DNA of 64,000 bases, taken from Nitrospirota bacterium (GTDB lineage: Bacteria; Nitrospirota; Thermodesulfovibrionia; UBA6902). The DNA is taken from assembly GCA_016234115.1 (NCBI GenBank), contig JACRHD010000019.1:62001-126000 (forward strand). Reading direction: 5' to 3'. The translations under genes and the position numbers were made by a program. Positions 44,022 through 51,189 of this stretch are shown piece by piece. The number at the start of each line of letters is the position of its first letter. The first letter of the stretch is position 1. The notes beneath the pieces are model-generated. The model made no database searches. It was not told the origin of the DNA and was given only the letters and a program-made list of their open reading frames with translations.

Positions 44022-44179
44022 ATATTCGGCTGAAAAATTACGCCCTTTTGGTATACAATGTCTCTTGTACCTACAAGCTCACAGGGGATTCAATGCCGGG
44101 ATTAAACAAAGCGGATACCTGTCGCGTCTATACAACACCTGCCTTAAAAACAGCAGGATGGTGTGATCCGCATTGGCGT
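44022..44179. repeat. Direct repeat, copy 1 (hsdR 5' region)
   Basis: About 158 bases nearly identical to 45183-45339, starting GGCTGAAAAATTACG and including TATACAATGTCTCTTGTACC (a possible promoter) and the first codons of an hsdR-like gene. The two copies flank dinD. Confidence 0.9.
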
Positions 44180-44200
44180 ATTGAATTATTAAATGAATGA
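44093..44200 (+). pseudogene. Type I restriction HsdR N-terminal remnant 1
   Basis: A 35-codon ORF reading MPGLNKADTCRVYTTPALKT then AGWCDPHWRIELLNE and stop. It matches the very start of HsdR/DEAD-type restriction subunits (MPGLNEADTCR...WCDPHWRIAEQ), then is cut off. A second copy is at 45253. Confidence 0.75.
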
Positions 44201-44230: not shown

Positions 44231-45073
44231 ATGAAAAAAGAGCTCATTGTAGAATTGTTCAGGAAATTTGAAGATGCTCGTTATCTATTCAACGATCTTG
44301 AGTGTTGGAGCGCGCGCGAGCTGCAGGAGATTCTGGGTTATTCCGAATGGCGGAACTTCCTAAAGGTTGTTGATAAAGCTAAAACAGCCTGTGAAAACAC
44401 CGGGCTATCTGTTTCAGACCATTTTGTTGAAGTCAACAAAATGGTTCGACTGGGAAGCGGAGCTGAACGTGAAATAGATGATATGGCTCTGACCCGATAC
44501 GCCTGCTATCTGATCGCGCAAAACGGTGACTCATCAAAGAGCGAAATAGCTTTTGCCCAAACCTATTTTGCCGTTCAAACACGCAAGCAAGAGATTATCG
44601 AACAGCGCCTGCTTGATGTAGATCGAGTCTCGGCCCGCGATAAGCTGTCCAAATCCGAAAAGAAACTATCGGGCATCATCTATGAGCGCGGCGTTGACGA
44701 CAGGGGCTTTGCCGTTATCCGCTCCAGAGGCGATCAGGCCTTGTTCGGCGGATATTCCACTAATGAAATGAAACGAAAATTAACGGTTCCCGCCGGTAGG
44801 CCTCTGGCGGATTTTCTGCCTACGCTGACGATCAAAGCAAAAGATTTTGCAACCGAGCTCACCAGCCATAACGTGCTCGAAAAAGATTTAACCGGCGAAA
44901 CACAAATATCAAACGAGCACGTTGATAATAATAGAGCCGTCCGCAAAATGTTGATCGAGCGAGGCGTAAAACCCGAAGCCCTGCCTCCTGCCGATGATGT
45001 GAAAAAGGTTCAGCGCAAATTGGACGGGGATGAAAAGAGGCTGTTGAAAGACGTCAAAAAGAAAAGGGGCTAA
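44231..45073 (+). CDS. dinD: DinD-like BRO-N domain protein
   Basis: 280 aa resembling DNA-damage-inducible protein D: LFNDLECWSARELQEILGYS and WRNFLKVVDKA (BRO-N fold), FAQTYFAVQTRKQEIIEQRL, and RGDQALFGGYSTNEMK. DinD of E. coli inhibits RecA filaments; homologues are frequent inside type I restriction-modification loci. Here it is flanked by two hsdR 5' remnants, suggesting decay or rearrangement of such a locus. GGGGG precedes the ATG. Confidence 0.85.
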   Translation: MKKELIVELFRKFEDARYLFNDLECWSARELQEILGYSEWRNFLKVVDKAKTACENTGLSVSDHFVEVNKMVRLGSGAEREIDDMALTRYACYLIAQNGDSSKSEIAFAQTYFAVQTRKQEIIEQRLLDVDRVSARDKLSKSEKKLSGIIYERGVDDRGFAVIRSRGDQALFGGYSTNEMKRKLTVPAGRPLADFLPTLTIKAKDFATELTSHNVLEKDLTGETQISNEHVDNNRAVRKMLIERGVKPEALPPADDVKKVQRKLDGDEKRLLKDVKKKRG

Positions 45074-45182: not shown

Positions 45183-45339
45183 ATATTGGCTGAAAAATTA
45201 CGTCCTTTTGGTATACAATGTCTCTTGTACCTACAAGCTCACAGGGGATTCAATGCCGGGATTAAACGAAGCGGATACATGTCGCATTTATATAACGCCT
45301 GCCTTAAAGACGGCGGGGCTGGTGTGATCCGCATTGGCG
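45183..45339. repeat. Direct repeat, copy 2 (hsdR 5' region)
   Basis: Second copy of the repeat at 44022-44179, with scattered substitutions and one extra base that breaks the reading frame. Confidence 0.9.
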
Positions 45340-45424
45340 GATCGCTGAACAGCATTATTTTACAGATGGGCAGATATATTTAGTGGGGGACGGCAGAAAA
45401 CGGATTGACATTGCGGAGCGGTAA
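45253..45424 (+). pseudogene. Type I restriction HsdR N-terminal remnant 2, frameshifted
   Basis: ATG at 45253 reads MPGLNEADTCRIYITPALKT, then a +1 shift near 45318 moves the match to another frame (WCDPHWRIAEQHYFTDGQIY then LVGDGRKR) before a stop at 45422. It is a longer remnant than copy 1. The remaining 130 bases to the next gene hold nothing recognisable. Confidence 0.8.
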
Positions 45425-45554: not shown

Positions 45555-47525
45555 ATGCAGGCAAAAGAAACTAAATTGCAAGATATAATTGAAGGGACAA
45601 AACAATACGTTATTCCTCTTTTTCAGCGAACCTATAGCTGGACAACTAAAGAATGGGAAATCTTATGGAAAGACCTAATTGAATTATGCGAAGCAGAAAA
45701 CCCACGGACTCATTTTATTGGTTCAATCGTAAATATGCCTACTGTTTCAGTGCCAGAAGGTGTAGCAAAATTTTTGCTGATCGATGGTCAGCAACGTTTA
45801 ACGACAATCTTCATTCTGCTAACTCTCTTGCGAAACAAGGCGCGAGAGCTACAACGGCAAGATTTCGCCGAGGAAATCAATAATACCTTACTTGTCAATC
45901 CTTATAAGAAAGATAATGACTTTTTCAAATTAATGCCAACACAGGTTGATAGGGATATATACAAGAACATCATCAATGGAAAAGCAAATGAAACAGAAAG
46001 TCAACTTACGAAGGCATACACTTTTTTTGAAAAGAAACTGCGACAAGTGTCGTTAGAACACGACAAACTCAAAAAAATCATTACCAGCTATTTTTCAGTT
46101 GTCAGCATTGTGCTCGATACGGACGATAACCCGTATTTGGTTTTTGAAAGCTTGAACGCTAAAGGAAGGCCCCTAACGCAGGCAGACCTCATTCGCAATT
46201 ATTTCTTTATGCGTATTCACATAGACAATCAAGATGAAGTTTACAGCAACTATTGGCAACCCATGCAAACCGCATTGAATGACAGCCTAACCGAATATAT
46301 AAGACACTACCTGATGAGAGACGGAAGCATCATAAAGCAAAATGACGTTTATTATGCTCTCAAAGAAAAAGTATCATCGGCCAAAGCAATTGATTATTTA
46401 AAGGAGCTGCAAAAATATTCTATTTACTATCAGCGTCTGCTCTATCCGGAACTTGAGCCAGAGGAGGATTTGCAGAAATATTTTCGCAGGTTGAACAGAA
46501 TAGAGGTCACAACGGCTTATCCATTGCTTCTAAACTTTTACGGTAATTATTCGGCAAACAAAATGAGCAAGGCCGACTTTATTACCATTCTGAAAACACT
46601 AGAAAATTATCTTATTCGCCGGTTTGTCTGCAATGTTCCTACAAATCAACTCAACAAAATCTTCCCAGCAGTTTATCCACTATTAGTCACAAAGCATCAA
46701 GATAATCATGCTGAAGGTGTCAAAGAAATATTGCAAGGCAGGGGTTATCCAAAAGACGCCGAGTTTTATACGCGGTTCAGGGAAACAAAGTTTTATGGTG
46801 CTGGAGACAGACTGATAAAAACCAAACTCATTCTTGAAACTATAGAAGAAGGTTTTGCTCACAAAGAGGCCGCGCCGTTTGATAATTTAACAATAGAACA
46901 TGTAATGCCTCAAACTTTATCAGTATGGTGGCAAAATCATATCGGGGAAGACTGGGAAGAGACCCACGAACTGTTTTTGCATACTATCGGCAATCTGACA
47001 TTGACTGCTTACAATACGGAGATGTCAAATGACGATTTCACGACGAAGAAAAAGACGTATAACGACAGTCATCTGGAGTTAAACAAATATTTTTCTTCTA
47101 TCTCGTCTTGGACACGTGCTGAAATTGAAAGAAGAGCAGAAGCATTAGCAAAACGAGCTCTTGAGATTTGGAACTACTTCGGTCAAGAAAACACCGCTAC
47201 TTCTGACCTGAAGGAAGTTACAGGCACATCGCCATCAGGCCTGAAAATCTTGGGGCAGCAGTTTCAAGTTCAAACATGGCGTGACGTTTTGGAGCAAACG
47301 CTCAATACAGTTGCTGATCTCGAACCCGACAAGTTCGAAGTTATTGCACAGAACTTTCCGCGCTATCTCGGTAAGGAAAAAAATAAATTCAGGGCGGTAC
47401 GACAGCTACAAAATGGTTTTTTCATCGAGGTCAACCTGTCAGCTCAAAGCATACAAAAGTTTTGTTCTCAAGCGATGGAGACCATTGAACTTACATCAGA
47501 TGACTGGCGCGTAATAATAAGCTGA
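45555..47525 (+). CDS. DUF262/DUF1524 (GmrSD-like) restriction-type nuclease
   Basis: A 656-residue protein. The DUF262 domain has the nucleotide-site motif LLIDGQQRLTTIF near residue 74, the opening PLFQRTYSWT, and YLVFESLNAKGRPLTQADL. The DUF1524 HNH motif TIEHVMPQTL is near 450 with HTIGNLTLTAYN. Fused GmrS/GmrD architectures act as type IV restriction enzymes against modified phage DNA. A C-terminal 110-residue domain is not recognised. The coding sequence is clearly more AT-rich than neighbouring core genes, suggesting horizontal acquisition. Likely anti-phage defence. Confidence 0.88.
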   Translation: MQAKETKLQDIIEGTKQYVIPLFQRTYSWTTKEWEILWKDLIELCEAENPRTHFIGSIVNMPTVSVPEGVAKFLLIDGQQRLTTIFILLTLLRNKARELQRQDFAEEINNTLLVNPYKKDNDFFKLMPTQVDRDIYKNIINGKANETESQLTKAYTFFEKKLRQVSLEHDKLKKIITSYFSVVSIVLDTDDNPYLVFESLNAKGRPLTQADLIRNYFFMRIHIDNQDEVYSNYWQPMQTALNDSLTEYIRHYLMRDGSIIKQNDVYYALKEKVSSAKAIDYLKELQKYSIYYQRLLYPELEPEEDLQKYFRRLNRIEVTTAYPLLLNFYGNYSANKMSKADFITILKTLENYLIRRFVCNVPTNQLNKIFPAVYPLLVTKHQDNHAEGVKEILQGRGYPKDAEFYTRFRETKFYGAGDRLIKTKLILETIEEGFAHKEAAPFDNLTIEHVMPQTLSVWWQNHIGEDWEETHELFLHTIGNLTLTAYNTEMSNDDFTTKKKTYNDSHLELNKYFSSISSWTRAEIERRAEALAKRALEIWNYFGQENTATSDLKEVTGTSPSGLKILGQQFQVQTWRDVLEQTLNTVADLEPDKFEVIAQNFPRYLGKEKNKFRAVRQLQNGFFIEVNLSAQSIQKFCSQAMETIELTSDDWRVIIS

Positions 47526-47527
47526 TA

Positions 47528-47690
47528 ATGCGAGGTCTGGAAAAGCTCAAGAGGTACGTGCATAAAGCAGCCGCGCAGGGGGAAAACTGCTTGCGGAGTT
47601 CGTTCCCTTAGACGGCAGGGAACTCTTTTTATTCAACATCACCAGGGCAAGGGTAAAAGTTAGTGGTCACTCGTAACATATTAAGATATA
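47528..47690 (+). pseudogene. Degenerate coding remnant A
   Basis: An ORF starting MRGLEKLKRYVHKAAAQGEN ends early; after a shift near a G/A run another frame reads KLLAEFVPLDGRELFLFN. The block EFVxLDGRExFLF recurs at 49306-49360, on the other side of the ATPase gene. Family not recognised. Confidence 0.5.
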
Positions 47691-47780
47691 AAGTAATAAT
47701 GGGTAAATGCAAAATATGAGCGGTATAAGGCGCATAATTTACCTGAAGCTGAAATATATTGTTGGATCAGGGAGTTAGCT

Positions 47781-49211
47781 ATGCCCGATAAAAACCTTGG
47801 CAATTTGCTTAAGCTTTACAATCCATGGTGGGACAACCGTCGAGGCCACTGGCGCGATGACCTGCCTGATTATCAACGGCCTGTCGTGCGGGAAGTGCTT
47901 TCCGATATCAAAGACCTGCTCCAGATCATATCCATAACAGGCCCGCGACGTGTTGGCAAGACGACAGCTCTAAGGCAGGTAATATGTTACCTGCTGGATA
48001 ATCTGGACATTGCCCCTTCACACATCCTTTATTTCTCTTTTGACGATCCCGAAGTCTATGGATCAGAAGATTTACAGAGAGTTATTTTCGACAGATTAAT
48101 AGAAAAGATGAAGGTTGATTCAAGAGATAAAACGCCAAGGTATTTTTTTCTCGACGAAATTCAGAGATTGCCCAAGTGGGAGTTGTATCTTAAAAGATAT
48201 TATGACCTGAAGTTTCCAGTACGTTTTATTATATCAGGATCAGCGTCGTCAGCTATCTTCAGACACAGCCAGGAAAGTCTGTTAGGCAGGATCAAAGACC
48301 GCCATCTTTTACCCTTTAGTTTTCGGGAATATTGTTTTTATCGTCTGCGTAAGCACCCCGAGTTTGCATCTATTGTCGGTGAGCACTTCGGGCTTCGTCA
48401 ATCCTTGTTGCTGGGCAACTGGCGGGAGATAGTCGCATCCATCAAGCAGCTTGAAACTAAACTATCAACCTTTGAAGATGATGTTCGCCAGACGATTGTC
48501 TCTTACTGTCGAGAGGGAGGCTTTCCAGAAGTCTGGTCATTAGCCGATCCTGTACGGAAAATAGAATATTTGATGGAACAACAAGTACGGAAAGTTCTCT
48601 ACGAGGACCTTATGGCCCTTACCCAGTATCGAAAACCGGAAAACGTGCTGAGATTCTTTGTTTATCTTCTGGCTCATCCTGGTAATGAAATCAACATGTC
48701 CACTTTGGCAAAACAAATTGGCGTTGAGCGGCGTATTGTGGAAGAGAATCTGCCCCGATTAATCATGACAGATTTGATTATTCGCATACAGAAATTCAGT
48801 CATCAGCCACTGAGAGTGCGACAGGGGAATATTAAGTGCTATCCTGTGGATTTGGCGCTCAGGAATGCAGTGCTGAAGACATGGGATGATTTTACCGCCA
48901 ATCCGGTTGTGATGGGCATGTATGCCGAAAACCTTGTTGCGCACGAGATATGCAAATGGCCTGAAGCAATTGAGATTGCATATTACCGTGAAAAGAAAAA
49001 TGAAGTCGACTTTGTGGTAACCTATGGCGGCAACAGATATCTGCCTATTGAAGTAAAGCATCGAAAATCTGATGACAAAGCTACCGGACTCAAACATTTC
49101 ATGAAAAAGTATAAACTTGATTTTGGCGTTGTCATAACGCGCGATCGGGACTGCCGTTTCAGTGAAGGAATTATTTATCTGCCGTTACGTTATTTTTTAT
49201 TGACGAATTGA
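47781..49211 (+). CDS. AAA ATPase with DUF4143 domain
   Basis: 476 aa. Walker A TGPRRVGKTTAL near residues 54-65 and Walker B YFFLDEIQRLPKWE near 117-130, with the sensor ISGSASSAI. The DUF4143 C-terminal domain has a PD-(D/E)xK-like segment (NEVDFVVTYGGNRYLPIEVKHR). Such ATPases are abundant in accessory regions of archaea and uncultured bacteria, and their role is not settled. It is located beside a DUF262 nuclease in the accessory island. GGGAG precedes the ATG. Confidence 0.87.
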   Translation: MPDKNLGNLLKLYNPWWDNRRGHWRDDLPDYQRPVVREVLSDIKDLLQIISITGPRRVGKTTALRQVICYLLDNLDIAPSHILYFSFDDPEVYGSEDLQRVIFDRLIEKMKVDSRDKTPRYFFLDEIQRLPKWELYLKRYYDLKFPVRFIISGSASSAIFRHSQESLLGRIKDRHLLPFSFREYCFYRLRKHPEFASIVGEHFGLRQSLLLGNWREIVASIKQLETKLSTFEDDVRQTIVSYCREGGFPEVWSLADPVRKIEYLMEQQVRKVLYEDLMALTQYRKPENVLRFFVYLLAHPGNEINMSTLAKQIGVERRIVEENLPRLIMTDLIIRIQKFSHQPLRVRQGNIKCYPVDLALRNAVLKTWDDFTANPVVMGMYAENLVAHEICKWPEAIEIAYYREKKNEVDFVVTYGGNRYLPIEVKHRKSDDKATGLKHFMKKYKLDFGVVITRDRDCRFSEGIIYLPLRYFLLTN

Positions 49212-49593
49212 GTTATTTGAAAAGAGATAGCAATTGTGGAGAGAGAATTAAATGATATTGATAGGAGCAAAGACAATCGTCTTGCTTTCCCTCACGCCGG
49301 AGGATAACTGTTACGGAGTTCGTTTCTTTGGACGGCAGGGAAGTATTTCTATTCAGTAAAACGCATAAAAAGGACGGCGACGCGTGACTTGACCGGTCTC
49401 GTTGAAAAAAAGCTGCTGGTAAAACAAGGTGAAAAGAAGGGCACGTATTATCTGCTTTCTCCGGCAATTTCAAAAATAAGGGACATTAAGGGACATGGTT
49501 AAGGGACAAATACAACCTTCAGGATATGCCGAATATCGAAAGAGGTTTATTTATATGAGCACATTGGATTGTTTTTCGCCCAAAAACTAAAAC
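49212..49593 (+). pseudogene. Degenerate coding remnant B (winged-helix end)
   Basis: After about 80 bases with nothing recognisable, 49306-49388 reads VTEFVSLDGREVFLFS, related to remnant A. A shifted frame then reads RDLTGLVEKKLLVKQGEKKG and TYYLLSPAISK to a stop near 49501. The latter resembles the winged-helix C-terminus of AlbA-type ATP-binding or Fic proteins. No intact gene; the last 90 bases hold no feature. Confidence 0.5.
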
Positions 49594-49623
49594 GGAGTTA
49601 CGGGACGTTACTCCCGTAACTCC
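49594..49623 (-). terminator. Terminator of the sigma-factor operon
   Basis: An 11-bp perfect stem GGAGTTACGGG / CCCGTAACTCC with an 8-base loop. Read on the minus strand it is followed by GTTTTAGTTTTTG. It sits just downstream of the sigma gene. Confidence 0.8.
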
Positions 49624-49665
49624 TTATGGTCAACTCAGCAAAGGCCTTTGCCGAGACCCGGTGGC

Positions 49666-51189
49666 TTAGTGGGCCTGGAGGAAGAGTTTAAGGTTCTGGC
49701 TGCGCGCAGGGTGTCTCAGTTTCCTGAGGGCCTTGCCTTCCAGTTGCCTTATTCTTTCCCTTGTGACCCTGAACTGTTTACCTACCTCTTCAAGTGTCTG
49801 CGAGACCCCGTCGTTTATGCCGAAGCGTTTCTCTATGATCTCGGCCTCCTTCGGGGTAAGGGTGCTCATGACTTTCCTGATCTCTTCTTTCAATTCCTGC
49901 TGGATCACGCCGTCAAGGGGGACGGAAGACGTCTTGTCCTCGATAAAATCTTCGAGGTGGCTGTCCTCATCATTGCCTATAGGCGTCTCGAGGGAGATAG
50001 GTTCCTTGCATATCTTGAGGATCTCTCTGACCTTTTCCAGCGGCAGCTTCATCTTCTTCGCTATTTCATCCGCCCTGGGCTCCCTGCCCAGGTCCTGCAC
50101 GAGATATTTGGACACGTGGGTAAGCCTGTTGATGGTTTCAATCATGTGCACCGGGAGTCTGATGGTCCGCGCCTGGTCGGCGAGCGCCCTCGTTATGGCC
50201 TGCCGTATCCACCACGTCGCATAAGTGCTGAATTTATACCCTCTCTTATAATCGAATTTATCTACCGCCCTCATCAGGCCGATATTGCCTTCCTGTATAA
50301 GATCCAGCAGACTGAGCCCCCTGCCGATGTACTTCCTTGCAACGCTGATGACAAGCCTCAGGTTCGCTTCGGTAAGCATTTTTTTCGCCTCTTCAATTTC
50401 AGCCTCGCTCCTGCGTAAAAGCCCCAGCATCCTCCCCACTTCTTCTGCCTTCAACCCGAGCTCCGCCTCCACTACCTCCATCTCTGTTTTCAGGCATCTC
50501 TGCATGTTGCGCGCTTTTTCGGCCACGTCCGCGCCCGCGTCCCGGTTGGAGGACAGGCTGCGGAGGTCTGCGGATATGTCTGCATGCAGGGCCGCCAGTT
50601 TCCTGAACTGGGCGCAGAAGGCCTCGATGATTTCTTCCCTGATCTGGAAATTCTGCACGTCGTCGACTATCCTGCGGTTGAGTTTCGCAAGCCTCGTTTT
50701 TATTGTTTCCCTTTCCGCGTCGTCCAGTCTCTTCTCACCCAATTTCTGCTGATAGAGGCTGATCTTCTGTAAGCCCGGCTTCAGGGACTTCATCCTGTCA
50801 TTAAGGTTTTGCACGAGGTTGTTCTTGTCCTCCTCCGGCATGTCTTTGTCCACCATGCAGATGCTTCCTATGGACAGCCTCTTTTCATTTAAGAGGAACG
50901 GCAGATGCATCATCTGCTTTACCGCGAACGGGGAAGCGAGAATAATTTCCGATAATTTCCTCTTCCCTTGCTCGATCTTCATGGCAAGGGCGACCTCCCC
51001 TTCCTTGTTCAGCAGGGGGATCGACTCCATTTCCCGGAGATATATTTTAATCGGATCATCCGCGCTGTAATTCGAGGAATAAGAAAATGCCCTGTGCTCG
51101 TGAGCGGTGTTGTCAAATTCTTCCGTTTCCGTTTCGGCTTCCGGAAACCTCGGTTCCTCAATTTCCATGTAATCGAGTGTTTCTTCCAT
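49666..51189 (-). CDS. Sigma-70 family RNA polymerase sigma factor without region 1.1
   Basis: 507 aa. After about 55 acidic residues region 1.2 begins ([23 protein letters not shown]). Region 2 is intact ([42 protein letters not shown]), as are regions 3 and 4 ([20 protein letters not shown]). A classical RpoD region 1.1 is absent, so this may be a group 2 (RpoS-like or second RpoD) factor rather than the housekeeping one. ATG at 51189 follows GGAGGTAAAGGCA. It is the last gene of a run with a STAS protein and small Cys-rich proteins, unusual company for rpoD. Confidence 0.88.

Follow-up and report, generated by a model that had tools for sequence, protein, structure and literature searches.

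The question raised by this locus is how an intact ATPase gene came to lie between two related remnants of another gene. In the window, by which we mean the whole 64,000-nucleotide stretch of Nitrospirota DNA that was analysed, the gene (47781-49211, forward strand) encodes a 476-residue protein with AAA_14 and DUF4143 domains (PF13173, E 1.9e-34; PF13635, E 3.4e-25) that score above the curated cut-offs (118.8 bits against 27 and 89.1 bits against 28.1, respectively), and the protein matches the PADLOC candidate defence model PDC-S01 (E 1.3e-57). A preliminary description of the sequence had proposed that two frameshifted segments bracketing the gene are related to each other, and that the gene had possibly inserted into a duplicated or split gene. 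The relationship of the segments is borne out: BLAST comparison of the left and right 800-nt flanks of the ATPase aligns 62 columns with 82% identity (E 1.1e-12), and a repeat search of the window pairs 47591-47635 with 49311-49355 (84% identity over 45 nt). The pair is in direct orientation, is far longer than the duplications made by insertion sequences, and comes in both copies from one gene. The repeat consensus, with up to 3 mismatches allowed, occurs in the window only at these two sites and was not met in 100 shuffles, and the left piece, used as query against the whole 3.5-Mb genome, gives E <0.2 at the two copies only.

A search of 150 related genomes for an uninterrupted homologue found one in genome G041, a gene for 158 amino acids (L009:1417-1893) of the DUF6978 family (PF22398, E 1.7e-37) that lies beside the type I specificity gene hsdS and is followed by a DUF1828/DUF1829 gene. 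Both window pieces match this one intact gene, and they are thus not remnants of unrelated genes, the outcome that would have spoken against the preliminary description. The G041 protein is matched in 17 of 230 genomes of the class, and partial DUF6978 matches occur in the window's genome and in G005, G032, G148 and G114, the pieces in the latter four holding the first 25 to 58 residues only, with a second piece from the gene end in G114. The left copy in the window (47575-47651, forward strand) is 75% identical to L009:1498-1574 and 92% identical to L010 over 48 nt, and is crossed by an open reading of 31 codons (47578-47670). The right copy (49271-49358, forward strand) is 75% identical to L009:1475-1561 over 49273-49358, and 84% identical to L010 over 49271-49344. 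A second right-hand part (49523-49571, forward strand; 84% to L009:1858-1906) comprises the 3' end of the DUF6978 gene and the first codons of the next, DUF1828-type gene, at the same gene junction as in G041. The right side is accordingly made of two parts of the DUF6978 gene with other DNA between them, including 49 codons (49353-49499, forward strand) that resemble the C-terminus of a Fic-family protein (42% over 45 aa, E 2.8e-4, to the end of a Fic gene in Rhizobium, L262). A Pfam search with the window pieces alone gave no match to DUF6978 (PF22398); the pieces align to a gene that does match. The copies differ by 16-18%, and the duplication is therefore either old or derived from two alleles. 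Insertion remains the best reading of the locus, but not insertion that simply split a gene: both pieces carry the same part of the DUF6978 gene, overlapping on L009, which excludes one gene cut in two by the ATPase.

The extent of the inserted unit follows from homologous DNA in three genomes, all from other families, in which the ATPase protein is 93% (G109), 92% (G117) and 85% (G139) identical to that of the window. The G109 DNA matches window positions 47650-49212 (91%), the G139 DNA matches 47668-49216 (81%), and the G117 DNA matches 47836-49213, with the G117 contig ending at the left. The unit (47650-49216, forward strand) therefore consists of a short leader and the ATPase gene, and is about one gene long. 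Analysis of the junctions, as proposed in the preliminary description, shows that the left junction is sharp, since the DUF6978 piece stops at 47651 and the homology of the unit starts at 47650. At the right junction the homology stops at 49212-49216, leaving ~55 nt before the right copy; 26 nt of this spacer (49222-49247, forward strand) resemble DNA to the left of the ATPase in G109 (88%, E 0.001 and 0.002), a lead only, and may have been carried along from a previous landing site. The terminal inverted repeats of an insertion sequence or transposon were not found: of the 20 inverted pairs listed for 46000-51000, none has arms at both ends of the unit. A search of related genomes for an empty counterpart of the window's own site found none, and for that reason the order of events at this site is one that we infer. 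In another Nitrospirota genome (L071:5219-6378), a close but truncated relative of the window's ATPase has an hsdR 5' piece on its left.

The surroundings of the ATPase in the window have a similar structure. The preliminary description had likened the bracketing pair to hsdR repeats around dinD, and the likeness holds: hsdR-like repeats that flank dinD (44231-45073, forward strand; NF008573, E 1.8e-107) align by BLAST over 161 columns with 91% identity. The left copy (44022-44181, forward strand) is 91% identical to 45183-45342 and, over 44093-44178, 86% identical to the start of the intact hsdR gene of a congener, G005; the right copy (45183-45393, forward strand) holds the second repeat copy at 45183-45342 and is 84% identical to the same hsdR start over 45253-45393. 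Between these repeats and the ATPase, immediately upstream of the left DUF6978 copy, lies a GmrSD-type (DUF262) gene (45555-47525, forward strand; PF03235, E 3.3e-36; PF07510, E 2.3e-31). G005 has a complete type I operon of hsdR, hsdM and hsdS (L056), also holding remnants: a Bro-N gene has hsdR on one side and an hsdR 5' copy (98 nt, 86%) on the other, an OLD-like and UvrD-like gene pair, which we take to be Gabija-like, lies between copies of the hsdS 3' end (L056:10072-13423; 33 nt, 88%), and a DUF6978 5' piece lies at the end of the OLD-UvrD pair. This comparison explains the hsdR pieces around dinD in the window: they match the start of the G005 hsdR gene (84-86%). The most plausible reading of the stretch from 44.0 to 49.6 kb of the window is a ruined type I operon, into which dinD, the GmrSD-type gene and the ATPase would have come singly. 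In a dinD control (20 ORFs testable from 30 loci), 2 of 20 dinD ORFs were bracketed, namely the window's own and a 107-aa fragment, and the idea that dinD is a second gene with recurrent bracketing was rejected.

In G139, the same ATPase lies between two copies of the start of a different gene (98 nt, 92%), which from its sequence appears to be zeta-like. Because G139 shows the same bracketing, we sampled 60 further DUF4143 regions, taken round DUF4143 domains from a family search in 61 genomes and analysed together with the earlier loci. The regions were picked in list order, some kilobases inside the contig, and the choice was blind to repeats. Bracketing was scored by BLAST (E<=1e-4) between 800 nt on each side, with other ORFs of at least 200 aa from the same loci for comparison; ORFs with less than 400 nt of flank on either side were excluded (less than 250 nt for Fic and for six outside genomes), and loci L063, L065 and L059, which duplicate L057 and L070, were left out of the counts of 74 and 282. 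Direct repeats bracket 24 of the 74 ATPases, those within one locus (L110, L115, L104/L105) being non-independent, vs. 10 of the 282 other ORFs (Fisher p 3.8e-11). Inverted repeats were found at 4/74 ATPases and 8/282 others. With a stricter threshold (E<=1e-8 and at least 40 nt), the counts for direct repeats are 20/74 vs. 4/282. Cases with one copy within another ORF of at least 150 aa number 14/74 vs. 3/282, and no repeat was found at 50 of the 74 ATPases. In the six outside genomes, 5 of 26 ATPases (26 ORFs from 30 loci; four of them, L066-L069, including the bracketed lepA case described below, already within the 74) and 0 of 12 other ORFs are bracketed. We conclude that direct repeats bracket DUF4143 ATPases more often than other ORFs of the same loci.

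The best repeats of the 24 bracketed ATPases are 31-163 nt long (median 65) and 71-98% identical. The right-hand copies are mutually dissimilar between loci, save in one tandem pair, and by eye some of the repeats (L104, L158, L161) resemble dispersed intergenic sequence. Between ATPases at different sites, homology mostly ends inside the repeats, no more than ~70 nt before the gene and ~25 nt after it. At L115 (G032:C4), one target piece is present in three copies beside two different ATPases arranged in tandem. Six plasmid loci (three from Thermus and one each from Moraxella, Rhizobium and Mesorhizobium) have no bracketing direct repeat. The Thermus thermophilus megaplasmids of HB8 (L258) and HB27 (L259) differ in that HB8 keeps about the first 58 and the last 9 bases of the HB27 ATPase gene, a loss that looks like a deletion between 4-bp matches; three Thermus plasmids that lack the HB8 ATPase at that place have only the right flank in common.

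At several loci one of the two copies is the complete end of a gene and the other a fragment of it, as for the 3' ends of lepA (L069), cysS (L121) and recR (L138) and the 5' ends of selB (L109) and livH (L125), all five gene families having been confirmed; a complete gene can therefore remain beside the insert. At L115, L152 and L163 the longer gene copy is on the left. Unoccupied sites were found at two of these loci. For cysS, all 8 congeners of G008 that were compared (G001-G007 and G009, a set that does not include the window's own genome) carry one 3' end only, with the surrounding 1.5 kb free of ATPase ORFs. For selB, G028 is continuous through a single copy of the start, and G032 has an ATPase between two copies; upstream of it, both genomes retain the final 27-39 codons left by an older ATPase, so this site is not virgin. 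A livH-like piece also lies upstream of selB (E 1.9e-8 in G028; weaker in G032, E 0.004). The start of selB has served as a landing site more than once, with three selB 5' copies in G032 (L109; compare L251 in G019 and L252 in G028). Four contigs (L125, L110, L181, L084) have a livH start next to an ATPase, the type of ATPase differing among them, and L186 has a fragment of livH; they span genomes of different families, and some of the contigs are without the rest of livH. Such sites are struck repeatedly. An unoccupied livH site was not found: regions of G000, G018 and G048 that match the left flank of L125 have no livH match. Sequence upstream of argG in two congeners matches on the right side only.

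Differences between the copies bear on how they arose. At cysS, 12 columns differ between the copies, 6 of them private to the fragment and 3 private to the gene. In G032, the outermost selB copy resembles the G019 start, and the inner fragment resembles the G028 start. Orthologue comparisons for the copies at cysS, selB and livH gave no separation of decay from import.

The same bracketing is found round other cargo. As a control in the same 61 genomes, 4 of 26 Fic genes (26 of 30 loci testable) are bracketed, a fraction that does not differ significantly from that of the ATPases (p 0.076), and our working idea of an ATPase-specific effect is weakened by this count. One of the Fic genes, at L276, lies between two 42-nt copies (98%) that by eye look to be a GTPase gene's 3' end.

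We consider it likely that the ATPase gene of the window entered a DUF6978 gene and in doing so duplicated ~64-100 bp of its target, probably by one-sided homologous import. The target gene would have been part of what was once a type I restriction operon. An incoming DNA fragment would carry the cargo together with a gene end that is also found in the host; the shared gene end would recombine with the resident copy, the other end of the fragment would join without homology, within or just past the same stretch, and the host's own gene end would stay as the second piece. Both copies would later decay, with neighbouring insertions cutting further into them. Several kinds of single accessory genes seem to take such a route, DUF4143 ATPases often. 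Import as the route is favoured by four observations: several gene types (Fic, Bro-N, the OLD-UvrD pair) bear the same scar; none of the 24 best repeat pairs is identical; at selB in G032 the outermost copy goes with G019 and the inner fragment with G028; and apparent pieces of former targets travel along with the cargo (livH-like DNA by selB, DUF6978 by the OLD-UvrD pair). The pattern of private columns at cysS counts against import, in that decay after plain duplication would also give it.

According to an alternative that we regard as unlikely, the ATPase is itself mobile: a predicted PD-(D/E)XK domain would nick the target twice, tens of bases apart, the gene would be captured, and fill-in would duplicate the target. 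E383, D410, E424 and K426, presumably the residues expected of PD-(D/E)XK nucleases, are invariant in all 7 aligned ATPases, and the C-terminal order of elements in a structural model of the protein (helix, three strands, helix, strand) fits the PD-(D/E)XK core order. A fold search with that model listed no nuclease, the listed matches falling on the ATPase part; the search says little about the nuclease domain, because the model covers 476 residues at a mean pLDDT of 73. Mobility of the ATPase itself would also suit a shared unit that comprises little beyond the gene, the frequency of bracketed ATPases, the tandem at L115, and the up to 15 DUF4143 domain matches per genome. It is at odds with the Fic genes, not significantly less often bracketed, with the bracketing of other gene types, with the lack of an identical pair, and with window unit ends that carry no inverted pair. 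A wider proposition would make DUF4143 ATPases single-gene elements able to move themselves and would place them with the smallest autonomous elements; their ATPase-nuclease would open a widely staggered break at gene ends, duplicating the landing site and sparing the host gene. We consider this proposition improbable.

The other alternatives place the repeats before the insertion or assign them to a different machinery. Two diverged DUF6978 genes, paralogues or alleles, might already have stood in tandem, the ATPase then entering between them or replacing the intervening DNA; this would account for copies that are 16-18% apart, and the type I operon of G005 holds remnants too. We nevertheless think this history quite unlikely: at other loci the duplicated genes are core genes such as cysS, lepA and recR, for which a tandem state is not expected, the cysS 3' end is single in 8 of 8 congeners, and the left piece in the window stops exactly at the unit boundary. 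The reading in the preliminary description that the ATPase entered a duplicated gene gives way here: more probably the insertion itself produced the duplication, since the ATPases at other loci are bracketed by copies of quite different genes. Alternatively, the repeats could be attachment sites of an integrase-driven element that carried a replacement gene end and is now reduced to the ATPase. The complete gene end retained on one side at several loci would fit such an element, as would the repeats at L228 (an ATPase of the outside genomes) and L297 (one of the four bracketed Fic genes), which by eye resemble tRNA ends. The repeats vary between loci in sequence and in length, and the shared unit, being one gene long, leaves no room for an integrase; we regard this origin as highly improbable.

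Insertion with target duplication by one-sided import resembles events described in other bacteria. Insertion with long target duplication was described by Nobusato et al. 2000 in Helicobacter pylori, and in the accounts available it is frequently tied to restriction-modification genes without strictly requiring them (PMC1643837, PMC3031569). The loci described here are like those cases in that a gene lies between long direct target copies of variable length. They differ from them, as far as those accounts go, in cargo, which here is a lone ATPase (or a Fic gene, a Bro-N gene or an OLD-UvrD pair) rather than a restriction-modification gene, and in their occurrence in Nitrospirota and some other phyla, with diverged copies and with core gene ends among the targets. 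In homology-facilitated illegitimate recombination, one end is joined by homology and the other without it (PMC5361080, PMC3240628), and one-sided homologous joining that leaves orphan pieces has been proposed for Vibrio effector-immunity arrays (PMC5361080). As described for the Vibrio modules, successive one-sided events would leave orphan pieces beside the new module; unlike there, the remnant here derives from the end of an ordinary adjacent gene. In E. coli, S. aureus and S. pyogenes, direct repeats are reported at the base of 10-18% of small variable segments, 66-94% of these repeats being shorter than 30 bp and discussed as deletion substrates (PMC2884548). Compared with the segments as reported there, the repeats here are longer, with a median of 65 nt, and some of them are gene ends. 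Archaeal AAA+ ATPases with HTH and RecB-type nuclease domains have been described as likely defence or plasmid genes (PMC4158269). Among the literature matches listed, in which subscription journals are thinly covered, there was no report of duplications round DUF4143 genes. The kind of event is already known; the cargo and the frequency are, as far as searched, new.

These loci bear on the movement of lone defence-type genes that have neither a transposase nor an integrase. About one third of the sampled ATPase copies are still scarred by their arrival, and some of the scars lie at core gene ends with unoccupied sites in relatives, which opens such movement to tests by counting as well as by experiment. 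Around island genes, 'frameshifted remnants' such as those beside the ATPase of the window can be read as copies of a landing site.
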